In this document: in pieces, positions 1,119 through 26,404 of the stretch
Layout: each line of letters opens with the position of its first letter
How positions within the stretch are numbered: the first letter of the stretch is position 1
DNA from: Clostridia bacterium
GTDB taxonomy: Bacteria; Bacillota; Clostridia; Oscillospirales; CAG-272
Assembly: GCA_017387685.1 (NCBI GenBank)
Contig: JAFOEU010000005.1
Span: 1 to 35,566 of the forward strand
DNA: 35,566 nucleotides
Direction of reading: 5' to 3'
Program-made: the position numbers and the translations under genes
The notes under the pieces: model-generated
Told to the model about the DNA's origin: nothing
The model's database searches: none
The model's input: only the letters and a program-made list of their open reading frames with translations

Positions 1119-3281
1119 ATGACAATCGAACAGATCCTCGCTGAGGAATTTAACCTGAAAGAAGAACAGGTAGTAAAAACCGTCGAGCTCATCGACGAGG
1201 GCAACACCATCCCCTTCATCGCGCGTTACCGTAAGGAAGTTACGGGCTCGCTTGACGATACCATTCTTCGTGACCTTTTTGACAGACTTACATACCTTCG
1301 CGGCATCGCAAAGCGCCGCGAGGAGGTAAAGAACCTTATCGACGCGCAGGGCAAGCTCACCGAAGAGCTCGTTGCAGCTATCGACGCGGCACAGACGATC
1401 ACCGAGATCGATGATATTTACCGCCCCTACCGTCCCCACAGAAAGACCCGCGCATCCGTTGCACGCGAGCGCGGACTCGAGCCTCTTGCCGATCTTCTTT
1501 TCGAGCAGAGAGAAAGCTACGAAAAGCCCCTCGAGGAGATCGCGGCAGAGTATATTGATGAAGAAAAGGGCGTTCCCGATGCCGCTGCAGCTCTCGCGGG
1601 TGCTAAGGATATCATCGCAGAAAACGTATCCGATAACGCATCATGCCGTAAGTCGGTAAGAACCCTTACGATGGAGCACGGCGCGATCGTATCCAAGGCC
1701 GCAAAGGAAGAGGATTCGGTCTACGCGCAGTATTATGATTTTAATGAGAAGGTCAAGAAGATCCTCCCCCACCGCATCCTCGCAATCAACAGAGGAGAGA
1801 AGGAGGGCTTCCTCAAGGTTACTCTCGAGCTAACCAACGATATCGTCAAGACCTATCTCTACCGCAAGTTCATCAAGCAGAACGAAAGCCCCGCAAAAGC
1901 TTACGTAGCAGAGGCAGTCGAGGACAGCTACGAGCGCCTTATTGCTCCTTCCGTCGAGCGTGAGATCAGAAACGATCTCACCGACGTTGCCTCCGAGGGC
2001 GCGATCAAGGTCTTCTCGGATAACCTCAAGCACCTTCTTATGCAGCCGCCTCTCCGCGGCAAGACCGTTATGGGCTTCGACCCCGGTTACCGTACCGGAT
2101 GTAAGCTCGCAGTTGTCGATTGGACCGGTAAGGTCATCGACACAGCGGTTATCTTCCCGACCAAGCCTCAGCAGAGGATTGAGGAGAGCACCAAGATCGT
2201 CACCCGCCTCATCCGCAAGTACGGTGTAAACGTGATCGCAATCGGTAACGGTACCGCATCCAAGGAAAGCGAGATCTTCATCGCGGGACTTCTCCGCGAC
2301 GGTGGTTTCGATTGCAAATATATTATGGTAAGCGAGGCGGGCGCATCCGTCTACTCCGCATCCAAGCTCGGAGCGGAGGAATTCCCTGATTTCGACGTTA
2401 CCCAGCGTTCCGCGGTTTCGATCGCGCGCCGTCTGCAGGATCCCCTTGCGGAGCTCGTTAAGATCGATCCCAAGTCAGTCGGCGTAGGTCAGTATCAGCA
2501 CGATATGAAACAGGCTCGTCTTGACGGCGCACTTACGGGCGTTGTCGAGGACTGCGTAAACTCGGTCGGAATCGACCTTAACACCGCTTCCTATTCGCTC
2601 CTTTCCTATGTTTCGGGTATCAGCATGCCCGTTGCGAAGAATATCGTCAAGTACCGCGAGGAAAACGGCGAATTCGAATCTCGCGCAGAGCTTCTCAAGG
2701 TTCCGAGACTCGGTGCGAAGGCGTTTGAGCAGTGCGCGGGCTTCCTCCGTGTTTCTGGCTCGAACGAGGTTCTTGACTGCACGGGCGTTCACCCCGAATC
2801 CTACGCGGCGGCGCGCGGACTTCTCAATAAGTTCGGCTACGATGAATCCGAGATCCGCACAGGCGGTGTCAAGCTTCTCGGAAACAAGGTCGCAAAGGAA
2901 GGCAAGGCGAAGCTTTGCGAAGAGCTCGGCATCGGTGAGCCCACTCTTAATGATATTGTTGAGGAACTGGAAAAGCCCGGCCGCGACGTTCGTGACAGCT
3001 TTGATGCTCCCATCCTCCGCGATGACGTTCTCGATATCAATTCCCTCAAGCCGGGTATGGTTATGACGGGTACGGTCAGAAACGTAATTGACTTCGGTGC
3101 ATTCGTAGATATCGGCGTTCATCAGGACGGACTTGTGCACATTTCCCGTATCTGCGATAAATTCATCAAGCATCCCTCCGAGGTTCTCTCGGTCGGCGAT
3201 ATCGTCCGCGTTCAGGTGCTCGAGGTTGACACCAAGCGCAACCGTATCGCTCTGACGATGCGCTTCAAGGAAGAGAAGTAA
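1119..3281 (+). CDS. tex: Tex-family RNA-binding transcription accessory protein
   Basis: A 720-residue protein close to the family length (about 720-780). In order: an N-terminal helical Tex domain (EEFNLKEEQV, then IPFIARYRKEVTG, the family signature), a YqgF-like RNase H fold (MGFDPGYRTGCKLAVVD), a helix-hairpin-helix segment (CVNSVGIDLNTAS ... LSYVSGI), and a C-terminal S1 domain (GMVMTGTVRNVIDFGAFVDIGVHQDGLVHIS). Tex binds nucleic acid and affects transcription and RNA stability in the cytoplasm; its precise molecular job is still loosely defined. AGGAG at 1107-1111 supports ATG 1119. It is co-directional with rsuA with only 28 nt between them and no terminator, so co-transcription is likely. 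No clear terminator follows; a weak hairpin sits at 3291-3307. Confidence 0.95.
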   Translation: MTIEQILAEEFNLKEEQVVKTVELIDEGNTIPFIARYRKEVTGSLDDTILRDLFDRLTYLRGIAKRREEVKNLIDAQGKLTEELVAAIDAAQTITEIDDIYRPYRPHRKTRASVARERGLEPLADLLFEQRESYEKPLEEIAAEYIDEEKGVPDAAAALAGAKDIIAENVSDNASCRKSVRTLTMEHGAIVSKAAKEEDSVYAQYYDFNEKVKKILPHRILAINRGEKEGFLKVTLELTNDIVKTYLYRKFIKQNESPAKAYVAEAVEDSYERLIAPSVEREIRNDLTDVASEGAIKVFSDNLKHLLMQPPLRGKTVMGFDPGYRTGCKLAVVDWTGKVIDTAVIFPTKPQQRIEESTKIVTRLIRKYGVNVIAIGNGTASKESEIFIAGLLRDGGFDCKYIMVSEAGASVYSASKLGAEEFPDFDVTQRSAVSIARRLQDPLAELVKIDPKSVGVGQYQHDMKQARLDGALTGVVEDCVNSVGIDLNTASYSLLSYVSGISMPVAKNIVKYREENGEFESRAELLKVPRLGAKAFEQCAGFLRVSGSNEVLDCTGVHPESYAAARGLLNKFGYDESEIRTGGVKLLGNKVAKEGKAKLCEELGIGEPTLNDIVEELEKPGRDVRDSFDAPILRDDVLDINSLKPGMVMTGTVRNVIDFGAFVDIGVHQDGLVHISRICDKFIKHPSEVLSVGDIVRVQVLEVDTKRNRIALTMRFKEEK

Positions 3282-24865: not shown

Positions 24866-24894
24866 TTGACAAAAGGACTTGAAAGTGGTATAAT
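24866..24894 (+). promoter_or_regulatory. Strong stable-RNA promoter, first tRNA-Leu(GAG)
   Basis: TTGACA (24866-24871), 17 nt, TGGTATAAT with -10 at 24889-24894. The A-tracts upstream resemble an UP element, and the GAAAGTGG stretch is shared with the promoter at 35416. Confidence 0.9.
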
Positions 24895-24917
24895 ATTACC
24901 GTTGTCGAAAGCAACAC

Positions 24918-25002
24918 GCGAGAGTGGCGGAACTGGCAGACGCGCACGTTTGAGGGGCGTGTGGTTCACACCGTACGGGTTCAAGTCCCGTTTCTCGCAC
25001 CA
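24918..25002 (+). tRNA. tRNA-Leu (anticodon GAG), copy 1
   Basis: An 85-nt class II tRNA. The GCGAGAG acceptor pairs with TTCTCGC (one G-U), followed by A and an encoded CCA. The D-arm AACTGGCAGAC, the anticodon loop TTGAGGG (GAG), the stem CACGT/GCGTG, a long variable arm and a T-arm with GGTTCAAG are present. GAG reads CUU/CUC leucine codons. A 5' leader hairpin GTTG..CAAC lies just upstream. Confidence 0.96.
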
Positions 25003-25031
25003 AGTAAAGCAGCCGTACGGCTGCTTTACTT
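25002..25031 (+). terminator. Long palindrome after tRNA-Leu(GAG) copy 1
   Basis: AAGTAAAGCAGCC and GGCTGCTTTACTT arms, 15 bp including a GTAC centre. No long T-run follows, so termination may be weak and read into the next hairpins and tRNA-Leu(CAG). Confidence 0.55.
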
Positions 25032-25042
25032 ATATAAAAACA

Positions 25043-25133
25043 GCGGATGTGACGCGGAAGCAATTCCACCACATCCACTCGTAACTCGCGGATGTGATGC
25101 GGAAGCAATTCCACCACATCCACTCGTAAACTC
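25043..25133 (+). repeat. Two tandem 45-bp repeats mimicking the 5' end of the next tRNA-Leu
   Basis: Units 25043-25087 and 25088-25133 differ by a T/C change and one A. Each begins GCGGATGTG, identical to the first nine bases of tRNA-Leu(CAG) at 25134. Each folds as GGATGTG / CACATCC, with an inner GGAA-GCAA-TTCC hairpin whose loop is a GNRA tetraloop. The units abut the tRNA directly, so they make up its 5' leader if transcription reads through. Confidence 0.85.
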
Positions 25134-25220
25134 GCGGATGTGGCGGAATTGGCAGACGCGCTAGATTCAGGTTCTAGTGGGGGCAACTCCATATGGGTTC
25201 AAGTCCCTTCATCCGCACCA
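25134..25220 (+). tRNA. tRNA-Leu (anticodon CAG)
   Basis: An 87-nt class II tRNA: acceptor GCGGATG / CATCCGC, CCA encoded at 25218-25220, anticodon loop TTCAGGT (CAG), a long variable arm, T-loop GGTTCAAG. It has no promoter of its own in the 130 nt after the first tRNA, so it is probably part of that transcript. Confidence 0.95.
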
Positions 25221-25260
25221 AACAAAGCCAACCCGAACTTGTTCGGGTTGGTTTTGTTTT
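25221..25260 (+). terminator. Terminator after tRNA-Leu(CAG)
   Basis: An 18-bp stem AACAAAGCCAACCCGAAC with its complement around TT, ending TTTTGTTTTA. Confidence 0.85.
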
Positions 25261-25278
25261 ATGTTGATAGAAAAACTT

Positions 25279-25393
25279 GAACCCACTACGTGTTGCTTGC
25301 AACATGTAAAATTTGCGCGTAGCAGAGTATGATTGAGTTTTTGCCCAATAATACGCGCAAATACGGGTTCGCAAGTCCCTTCATCCGCACCAA
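25279..25393 (+). repeat. Structured repeat R1 (three-way junction) plus copied tRNA-Leu(CAG) 3' end
   Basis: P1 GAACCC (25279-25284) / GGGTTC (25365-25370); P2 ACGTGTTGC / GCAACATGT (25288-25307); P3 ATTTGCGCGTA / TACGCGCAAAT (25311-25362). P2 and P3 differ from the other copies in both arms while pairing is kept. Bases 25372-25393 (CAAGTCCCTTCATCCGCACC and on) repeat the tRNA-Leu(CAG) 3' end at 25200-25220. Confidence 0.85.
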
Positions 25394-25433
25394 CACAAAA
25401 GGAGATGACCTACGGTCATCTCCTTTTGTGTTG
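25391..25433 (+). terminator. 20-bp hairpin after the R1 tRNA-like end
   Basis: CAACACAAAAGGAGATGACC with a perfect complement around TAC. A related hairpin recurs after tRNA-Leu(GAG) copy 2 and after R4. Terminator-like, but the T-tract sits inside the stem. Confidence 0.7.
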
Positions 25434-25453
25434 GTACAGACATTAAAGATGCA

Positions 25454-25560
25454 GAACCCCTTGCTGTTGCTTGCAACAGCAACCATTTGCGCGCGAGCAG
25501 AGTGTATAATTATTGCACCGAATAAAGCGCGCAAATACGGGTTCGCAAGTCCCTTCTAAT
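25454..25560 (+). repeat. Structured repeat R2 (three-way junction)
   Basis: P1 GAACCC 25454-25459 / GGGTTC 25539-25544; P2 TTGCTGTTGC / GCAACAGCAA (25461-25482); P3 ATTTGCGCGC 25485-25494 / GCGCGCAAAT 25527-25536; the P3 loop begins GAGCAGAG. The tail GCAAGTCCCTTC keeps the start of the tRNA-Leu(CAG) 3' end. It is preceded by the linker TTGGTACAGA..TAAAGATGC. Confidence 0.85.
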
Positions 25561-25572
25561 TAGGATACCAAA

Positions 25573-25592
25573 GGTCATCTCCTTTTGTGTTG
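25573..25592 (+). repeat. Orphan right arm of the 20-bp hairpin
   Basis: GGTCATCTCC TTTTGTGTTG is identical to 25414-25433, but the left arm is missing. It shows that an ancestral unit lost its tRNA-like end and half of the hairpin. Confidence 0.8.
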
Positions 25593-25610
25593 CTACAGAT
25601 TAAAGACGCC

Positions 25611-25672
25611 GAACCCCTTGCTGTTGCTTGCAACAGCAATCATTTGCGCGCGAGCAGAGAATATAGATCGAT
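25611..25672 (+). repeat. Structured repeat R3, truncated
   Basis: P1 5' arm, complete P2 (25618-25639) and the P3 5' arm (25642-25651) with GAGCAGAG are present; the 3' arms are absent. The sequence leaves the repeat near 25665 and enters the promoter region of the next tRNA. Confidence 0.8.
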
Positions 25673-25735
25673 AACCGATTTGCCCTAACCATCAAAAAAT
25701 ATTTTGTATTTTTACAAGTTTTTTTGAAAAATGTA

Positions 25736-25764
25736 TTGACAAACCCAACCCATTGTGATATAAT
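25736..25764 (+). promoter_or_regulatory. Promoter of tRNA-Leu(GAG) copy 2
   Basis: TTGACA (25736-25741), 17 nt, TGATATAAT with -10 at 25759-25764, preceded by A/T tracts. Different spacer from copy 1, so only the tRNA and its immediate leader are shared. Confidence 0.9.
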
Positions 25765-25787
25765 ATAGGAGTTGCAGAAAGCAACAC

Positions 25788-25872
25788 GCGAGAGTGGCGG
25801 AACTGGCAGACGCGCACGTTTGAGGGGCGTGTGGTTCACACCGTACGGGTTCAAGTCCCGTTTCTCGCACCA
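25788..25872 (+). tRNA. tRNA-Leu (anticodon GAG), copy 2
   Basis: Identical over all 85 bases to the copy at 24918, with an encoded CCA and the same GCAAC leader. It has its own promoter. Confidence 0.96.
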
Positions 25873-25910
25873 AGCAAAAGGGGATGACCTATGGTCATCC
25901 CCTTTTGCTT
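25872..25910 (+). terminator. 18-bp hairpin after tRNA-Leu(GAG) copy 2
   Basis: AAGCAAAAGGGGATGACC with a perfect complement around TAT. It differs from the 25391 hairpin by paired changes (GGAGA/TCTCC versus GGGGA/TCCCC). Confidence 0.75.
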
Positions 25911-25931
25911 GGTACAAGTAATAAAGACGCA

Positions 25932-26036
25932 GAACCCCTTGCTGTTGCTTGCAACAGCAATCATTTGCGCGCGAGCAGAGAATAAAATTATCGCACCGAA
26001 TAAAGCGCGCAAATATGGGTTCGTAAGTCCCGTTTT
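25932..26036 (+). repeat. Structured repeat R4 (three-way junction)
   Basis: P1 GAACCC 25932-25937 / GGGTTC 26017-26022; P2 25939-25960; P3 ATTTGCGCGC 25963-25972 / GCGCGCAAAT 26005-26014. The tail AAGTCCCGTTTTC resembles the 3' end of the preceding tRNA-Leu(GAG) (AAGTCCCGTTTCTC), not the CAG tRNA. Confidence 0.85.
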
Positions 26037-26037
26037 C

Positions 26038-26062
26038 AGAGGACGACCGTAGGTCGTCCTCT
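26038..26062 (+). repeat. Third member of the hairpin family
   Basis: AGAGGACGACC / GGTCGTCCTCT around GTA; it shares the ACC-loop-GGT core of the two longer hairpins and is followed by the TTGGTATAAG..AAAGACGCC linker. Confidence 0.75.
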
Positions 26063-26089
26063 TTGGCTTGGTATAAGTAAAAAGACGCC

Positions 26090-26175
26090 GAACCCCTTGC
26101 TGTTGCCTGCAACAGCAATCATTTGCGCGAGAGCAGTAAATAGAATGATATTGCGCGCAAATATGGGTTGCAAGC
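26090..26175 (+). repeat. Structured repeat R5, slightly degenerate
   Basis: P1 GAACCC / GGGTTG (one pair lost), P2 26097-26118 with a CT loop, P3 ATTTGCGCG 26121-26129 / CGCGCAAAT 26154-26162 with a shortened loop. The T-arm-like tail has decayed to GCAAGCTCGG. The next 150 bases (26176-26327) are AT-rich with nothing recognisable. Confidence 0.8.
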
Positions 26176-26327
26176 TCGGATTTTTATCTCGGGCGATCTA
26201 TCCGTAGTTTCGATGTGACATATACTATTCACTGGTGATTTTCGCTTTATTATGCATAAAAATGCAATTCTGAAGCTATAAATTTGTGAAATATTTATAT
26301 TAATGCTAAATAATTGGCACAAAACTA

Positions 26328-26356
26328 TTGAAATCGTGCGGAATGTGTGGTATAAT
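26328..26356 (+). promoter_or_regulatory. Promoter of the prepilin-SGNH gene
   Basis: TTGAAA (26328-26333), 17 nt, TGGTATAAT with -10 at 26351-26356. Confidence 0.85.
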
Positions 26357-26404
26357 ATTAGTTAACTGTTTACCCATTTATAGGAATTGATCAGGAGGTG
26401 CACC

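Follow-up and report, generated by a model that had tools for sequence, protein, structure and literature searches.

tRNA-anchored repeats in Clostridia with an outer stem that matches the T-arm of the neighbouring tRNA

Five copies of a short repeat with the potential to fold into a three-way junction stand among tRNA-Leu genes in the genome of an uncultured gut Clostridia bacterium. The locus raises the question of what the outer stem of the repeat is, what keeps its stems paired, and whether the element acts as RNA or as DNA. By "the window" we mean the whole stretch of DNA that was analysed, 35,566 nucleotides in length.

A five-copy array among tRNA-Leu genes

The copies lie at 25276-26175 of the window; R1, R2 and R4 are complete, R5 is shortened in P3 and R3 is truncated. 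The sequence itself, a repeat search and a covariance model all placed them where the initial annotation had, with the outer stem (P1) and the two inner stems (P2 and P3) that it had described. Three tRNA-Leu genes, with GAG, CAG and GAG anticodons, were located in the window with ARAGORN. The features of the array are as follows.

24918-25002, plus strand: tRNA-Leu(GAG), gene 1, without a 3' element directly behind it (ARAGORN, Rfam)
25043-25084, plus strand: 5' analogue copy 1, a copy of the tRNA-Leu(CAG) 5' end with a 2-nt insertion and an inverted copy, forming a hairpin (repeat search, read by eye)
25088-25129, plus strand: 5' analogue copy 2 (repeat search, read by eye)
25134-25220, plus strand: tRNA-Leu(CAG), matched by the ends of R1 (ARAGORN, Rfam, flank-matching test)
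25221-25260, plus strand: terminator-like hairpin of tRNA-Leu(CAG) (sequence, predicted fold)
25276-25392, plus strand: R1, whole (sequence, fold, covariance model, flank-matching test)
25276-25284, plus strand: left arm of R1, CTTGAACCC, an inverted T-arm
25287-25308 and 25311-25362, plus strand: P2 and P3 of R1
25365-25392, plus strand: right arm of R1, GGGTTC with a GC insertion and a copy of the tRNA 3' end up to CCA
25390-25434, plus strand: terminator-like hairpin between R1 and R2 (inverted-repeat search)
25454-25556, plus strand: R2, with left arm 25454-25459, P2 25461-25482, P3 25485-25536 and right T-arm copy 25539-25556
25611-25651, plus strand: R3, truncated, with left arm 25611-25616, P2 25618-25639, the P3 5' strand 25642-25651 and nothing further
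25788-25872, plus strand: tRNA-Leu(GAG), gene 2, matched by the ends of R4 (ARAGORN, flank-matching test)
25861-25921, plus strand: terminator-like hairpin extending into the 3' end of tRNA-Leu(GAG) gene 2 (inverted-repeat search)
25932-26034, plus strand: R4, with left arm 25932-25937, P2 25939-25960 and P3 25963-26014
26017-26034, plus strand: right T-arm copy of R4, with a GT insertion
26090-26170, plus strand: R5, with left arm 26090-26095, P2 26097-26118, P3 26121-26162 and the partial right arm GGGTT

In these copies P1 pairs GAACCC with GGGTTC, and P2 and P3 have 10 bp each; the P3 loop of R5 is 10 nt shorter, and its right arm consists of GGGTT only. The three-way junction was the minimum-energy RNA fold of all four copies that were folded, with z scores of -4.15 for R1, -5.41 for R2, -3.82 for R4 and -1.90 for R5. 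A separate record of a near strain (RGIG279, from dairy cattle caecum; L109, 5,846 bp) matched the window at 98.7% identity, with 65 mismatches in 5,783 bp, and five copies with the same spacing and the same scores as the window array were found in it with the covariance model of P2 and P3. Thus, the array is not an artefact of a single assembly.

The tRNA-Leu(GAG) gene is itself duplicated together with the DNA just upstream of it (24885-25008 and 25755-25878, 94% identity). Moreover, two tandem 42-nt hairpins precede tRNA-Leu(CAG) at 25043-25129, each pairing a copy of the tRNA 5' end, which carries a 2-nt insertion, with an inverted copy of that end. Copies of tRNA 5' halves were also seen upstream of tRNA-Leu(TAG) (L014) and of tRNA-Pro(TGG) (L009), in the latter case with an insertion in the D-loop copy. 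Mirroring therefore extends beyond the 3' side of tRNA genes.

The family follows tRNA genes of many identities

A BLAST search with R2 returned further copies on other contigs of the same genome. We built a covariance model from 14 of the own-genome copies, using P2 and P3 only and omitting the outer stem; truncated or very diverged copies (R3, one of the two at C59, C103 and two of the three at C17) were left out of the alignment. With this model, a scan of the kind proposed in the initial annotation gave 29 matches in the own genome at E<=1 and 27 at E<=0.01. A copy behind tRNA-Asn on contig C30 was spotted by eye and later matched by the model.

Among the 42 tRNA matches of the genome, 17 are the nearest same-strand upstream tRNA, at <=700 nt, of a model match: Leu (five genes), Pro (two), Asn (two), Ser (two), Thr, His, Arg, Val, Lys and Met. 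The linkage to tRNA-Leu that had been proposed for the repeats has to be given up in favour of a wider one, as the family follows tRNAs of many identities and not Leu as such. Remnants of the element were found behind three own-genome tRNAs (Gln CTG, Arg CCG and one Asn), and at tRNA-Trp an element lies 1.26 kb away (L031). Where the DNA downstream of the other tRNAs was read, it held mostly a plain terminator, and some of these tRNAs stand in clusters or at contig ends. At most loci P2 of the first copy begins 63-80 nt behind the tRNA, and tandem units are spaced by ~110-200 bp.

We searched 59 genomes, including the own genome, with the model. Five matched, each of them one of the 13 genomes from the window's genus, and none of the 46 outside it did; the core-bearing genomes include RGIG1801 (goat caecum), RGIG6228 (sheep rectum) and RGIG9562 (yak colon). 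An exact P3 hairpin pattern run over genome contigs yielded 36 stretches, made up of ruminant-gut Clostridia MAGs and hairpins in unrelated bacteria, and one matching stretch falls in viral contigs.

Other arrangements were noted around some of these loci. In three species an element is preceded by a conserved RNA-like stretch (CATCATCGCCAAGGGATA... or near) with its own terminator, with no tRNA directly before the element (L031 at ~1645-1810, minus strand; L057 and L068 just before 1501). This stretch matched no Rfam family at threshold, and in L031, where tRNA-Trp and the element are separated by an insert of ~1.2 kb that contains ORF-like sequence, it comes after this insert. At L012 (1178-1552, minus strand) two elements stand behind a tRNA 3' half that starts at about the anticodon loop and is elongator-Met-like by eye; its lack of an upstream 5' half is possibly the result of displacement by an insertion. 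A second type of repeat behind tRNA terminators, at several tRNA genes, consists of arrays of short hairpins (L118, L119, L125, L126, L128, L132 and L166) with linkers such as GATGATATAC, GGCATC or AATGATGT.

The outer stem corresponds to the T-arm of the local tRNA

The order within a unit is tRNA, terminator-like hairpin, inverted local T-arm, P2, P3 and the local tRNA 3' end repeated in direct orientation. In the right arm the T-arm of the upstream tRNA is copied directly, often together with part or all of the acceptor strand; in the left arm it stands as its reverse complement. Many right copies end short of the end of the acceptor strand; at R1, Val, Lys and Ser the copy reaches CCA. At tRNA-His, Arg, Gln and others, left arms were seen by eye to extend into inverted acceptor or CCA sequence. 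In the tRNA-His case the terminator hairpin continues into TGGGGTGAA, an inverted acceptor end, shortly after which comes GATTCGAACCCAC, an inverted T-arm. Hence the outer stem of the element, which the initial annotation had held to be explained by no known feature at the locus, has its explanation in the adjacent tRNA gene.

The correspondence was quantified with a flank-matching test. From 99 model matches, 72 were retained after leaving out five in L109, four in L083, one each in L115 and L098, and 16 weak matches that lie on the strand opposite to a copy. An ARAGORN tRNA lies <=700 nt upstream of 47 of the 72, and these were scored against 22 distinct tRNA 3' ends; the other 25, several of them at contig ends, have no such tRNA and were excluded; they include the two L012 copies behind the tRNA 3' half and the L031, L057 and L068 copies behind the RNA-like stretch. 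The right flank fitted the 3' end of its own tRNA best in 37 of the 47 copies (ties counted as best; six ties), with a summed score of 685.5 against 390.4 upon permutation (sd 16.5, maximum 454; 0/2000 permutations). The left flank fitted the reverse complement of its own tRNA best in 19 of the 47, with a summed score of 388.5 against 308.6 (sd 8.8, maximum 340; 0/2000). P1 was also longer with its own partner than with permuted ones (6.59 against 5.84, sd 0.15; 0/5000, n=46).

The right copies have a further regularity, in that an insertion follows TTC of the T-loop in all 39 classifiable copies (8 of the 47 were not classifiable). Its size was +1 in 28 copies at G57 tRNAs, +2 in 10 at A57 tRNAs, and +2 in one at a G57 tRNA. 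The ends of the element thus vary from locus to locus with the local tRNA, and terminal inverted repeats fixed across the family were not found.

Pairing is kept while loops diverge

Pairing was maintained across the copies of the own genome and across orthologous loci of different species, as had been proposed from the window alone, and the covariation predicted there exceeded the shuffle controls in both alignments. The 14 own-genome copies were 97.5% paired, with two-sided changes at 11 of the 20 pairs (0/500 shuffles). We then aligned 65 copies (63 distinct) of five species, from 48 sources at E<=0.001; L041 and L077 were left out, and L148 gave no match though the layout is visible by eye. 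In this alignment, which was fitted to the model and so favours structure, 96.9% of positions were paired and 17 of the 20 pairs had changed on both sides. The covariation score, subject to the same fitting, was 0.537, against 0.138 for shuffled alignments (0/500) and 0.04-0.07 for slid controls. Among 33 ortholog pairs, in which the same tRNA was compared between different species, there were 105 two-sided changes, 13 changes via G.U and 40 broken pairs; the loops of these pairs differed at 500 of 1132 positions.

The initial annotation had also considered a mobile repeat of tRNA ends. Core identity was 0.704 at the same tRNA in another species, 0.627 at another tRNA of the same species and 0.619 at another tRNA of another species, and in 23 of 49 cases the best match in another species lay at the same tRNA, where a random pick would give 8.5. 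Because the cores group by locus and not by species, the copies in the window's clade have mostly been inherited in place; current mobility within the clade is unlikely, and recent amplification within a genome was not supported by the comparison of identity by locus and by species.

Individual loci differ in their number of units. Behind tRNA-Leu(CAA), two units at C59 correspond to one at C103 before identical downstream sequence, and the last unit is truncated in both. In L011, L015 and L054, read by eye, a second unit begins anew from a terminator-hairpin tip and keeps only the 3' half of that hairpin, as expected for palindromes that break at their centre.

The layout recurs with other cores in the bacterial family

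Two genomes of the same genus without the core (G006 and G010) have, by eye, the same layout with other P2 and P3 sequences at tRNA-His (L140, L141). Orthologous tRNAs without an element also exist among the genomes compared. For a search independent of the core we used the strict pattern GAACC N70-100 GGTTC[AT]GA[AG]TCC, with the reversed pattern as the control. In the bacterial family the pattern occurred at 84 places, in 28 of 196 genomes and 16 of 71 genera, and the reversed pattern at 3 places. In the 24 pattern-positive family genomes outside the genus, taken at one locus each, a tRNA ended 42-66 nt before the match in 17 cases (Arg, Ala, His, Met, Gln, Thr, Lys and Val). Of the other seven, three look like chance matches (L192, L211, L212) and four have the layout with no recognised tRNA (L193, L194, L198, L199). 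In a draw from the order outside the family, 8 of 264 genomes matched: two of one genus, 52-53 nt behind tRNA-Arg, one with the layout without a recognised tRNA, and five that look like chance. A draw of 398 genomes from the phylum gave, besides the own genome, 7 matches, all single and with no tRNA in the loci; the reversed pattern gave 10. Across the bacterial family, then, the layout recurs with other cores, and it is rare elsewhere in the order.

RNA or DNA

If pairing had been selected in an RNA, G.U should exceed A.C on the tRNA strand. The elements had 15 G.U and 10 A.C, with 27 other mismatches (p=0.42). The acceptor and T stems of 91 distinct tRNAs had 92 G.U and 5 A.C, from which the elements differ (p=4e-5). 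Terminator hairpins do act as RNA, and the terminator-like hairpins behind tRNAs, present in 107 of 153 regions, likewise had few G.U, 33 against 9 A.C, a ratio from which that of the elements does not differ significantly (p=0.16); both controls pool the fetched loci, including those of unrelated bacteria. P2 alone, scored like the terminators, had 3 G.U and no A.C. These counts lean towards DNA and give no clear RNA-strand signature, and they are not decisive. A single event of template switching can both create and repair stems (PMC8794818). It can thus make two-sided changes, so that covariation here need not mean selection on RNA. The initial annotation had read the kept pairing as selection on a folded RNA or DNA. 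The pairing itself stands, but covariation by itself is not enough to conclude that a folded RNA is under selection: the ratio of G.U to A.C is low relative to tRNA stems, and template switching can yield such changes. That interpretation is partly supported and needs correcting in that many tRNAs serve as anchors and the outer stem comes from the neighbouring tRNA.

With a confidence just short of even, we regard the element as a palindromic DNA repeat anchored at tRNA genes (a "T-arm mirror" element), whose perfect stems and local match would be maintained by templated copying, by selection or by both. The element would act and persist as DNA. The long imperfect palindrome composed of the tRNA 3' end, the terminator and the inverted tRNA 3' end, as well as P1-P3, could extrude as hairpins. 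Template switching during replication, a mechanism taken from the literature (PMC8794818), would then use one arm, as well as the adjacent tRNA, as the template for re-copying the other arm, giving perfect stems and locus-matched ends. Breakage at hairpin tips, followed by repair, may generate the tandem units, some of which would restart at the tip of the terminator hairpin. Putative benefits to the cell are insulation of the tRNA gene and service as a decoy for integrases that target tRNAs. Some observations count against a DNA element: its placement on the same strand shortly after a tRNA would suit an RNA too, the matching of the left arm is weaker than that of the right, and the spread of the P2-P3 core to many tRNAs is left unexplained. 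The presence of the element at orthologous tRNAs despite a 44% difference in the loops suggests selection, which a purely mutational account would not require.

The placement of the element on the tRNA strand, close behind the tRNA, and the strong covariation would fit a structured RNA of the tRNA trailer. In such a read-through RNA the anti-T-arm would capture the tRNA 3' half, or be held by the downstream T-arm copy, and so tune tRNA maturation or turnover. Of the three loci folded (R1, His and R4), R1 and His gave predicted read-through folds in which the left arm takes up the 3' half of the tRNA, while the downstream copy pairs with the tRNA 5' strand. At R4, however, the predicted fold leaves the tRNA intact. 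The element also sits behind a terminator-like hairpin, many right copies do not extend as far as the acceptor-strand end, and there is no clear excess of G.U. We consider a trailer RNA rather improbable, and a DNA palindrome likelier than a non-coding RNA. It is unlikely, too, that the repeats are remnants or minimal forms of a site-specific integrative element, in which the right copy would be an attR-like duplication with the crossover in the T-loop, and the unit from acceptor through terminator, P2 and P3 to GGTTC would be the insert, tandemly amplified. This proposal agrees with a tRNA 3' end that is duplicated directly, starting from the T-arm, with the regular insertion at the T-loop junction and with the tandem units, and a T-loop-to-T-loop deletion would restore a whole tRNA where the copy reaches CCA (R1, Val, Lys, Ser). 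Yet a recombinase gene would not fit into units spaced by ~110-200 bp, one would not expect an inverted T-arm that matches the local tRNA at each of many tRNAs, and an insertion at the supposed crossover should hinder recombination. More improbable still is an actively transposing MITE- or REP-like element moved in trans, for example by a REP-associated Y1 transposase. The family is dispersed and has inverted ends, and in other genera the cores look alike within a genome by eye; in the window's clade, however, the cores group by locus, and the ends differ per locus and track the tRNA. Y1_Tnp was found in only 3 of the 13 genus genomes and in 2 of the 5 with this core. The link to this transposase (PF01797) was unsupported, as it was not found in the window's genome, although at ~85% completeness its absence is not certain.

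Beyond the window, it is possible, with doubt prevailing, that these repeats form a new class of element on tRNA genes, present across a Clostridia family and part of its order. A dispersed folded core would take its ends from the host tRNA by priming on or copying the universal T-loop, with the regular T-loop insertion, and tRNAs would serve as landing pads and templates. If so, these structures would be either selfish DNA or a means by which the host guards or regulates its tRNA genes.

Comparison with known systems

The 178-bp repeats of Escherichia coli tyrT, source of rtT RNA (RF00391), are reportedly tandem repeats behind a tRNA gene, each with a copy of the tRNA 3' end, and are said to be confined to one locus and one tRNA. 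By that description the present unit resembles them in holding a direct copy of the upstream tRNA 3' end, and it differs in the association of the family with many tRNAs, in having an inverted T-arm and in its three-way junction. RF00391 gave no match at gathering over the window, nor at E<=5 over 24880-26400. A match to a known Rfam family, which the initial annotation had held to speak against its proposal, was limited at threshold to tRNA; at gathering and permissive settings the elements gave only tRNAs and sub-threshold chance matches to hairpins.

Like tRNA attachment sites (attL/attR), the loci have a tRNA 3' end duplicated behind an intact tRNA. Unlike them, the units measure ~110-200 bp, have an inverted T-arm opposite and show a T-loop insertion in every classifiable copy. 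The elements are short, dispersed, hairpin-forming and non-coding, as are REP/BIME and MITE-type palindromic repeats, but their ends are locus-specific copies of the adjacent tRNA and their site is typically directly behind it; unlike in REP/RAYT systems, a Y1 transposase was not found in the window's genome (~85% complete). Candidate structured RNAs of the human microbiome, as presented in passages of PMC8040213, are covarying structures in gut bacteria, some of them palindromic, and the present elements are likewise covarying structures in gut bacteria. The main-text passages of that paper on tRNAs and repeats hold none that stands behind tRNA genes with T-arm-matched stems, unlike the present family, and in the open-access literature searched we recognised no description of T-arm-matched repeats behind tRNA genes.

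The family offers a test case for two questions: whether selection is required for compensatory stem changes or template switching can produce them, and in what way tRNA genes influence the DNA that surrounds them. It calls for caution as well, since covariation is usually taken to mark a structured RNA and can also be a property of a DNA palindrome. The ends of dispersed repeats are normally fixed. In this family they reproduce the adjacent host gene, as seen with at least a dozen amino-acid identities across genomes, and they stay matched to it while the loops diverge.
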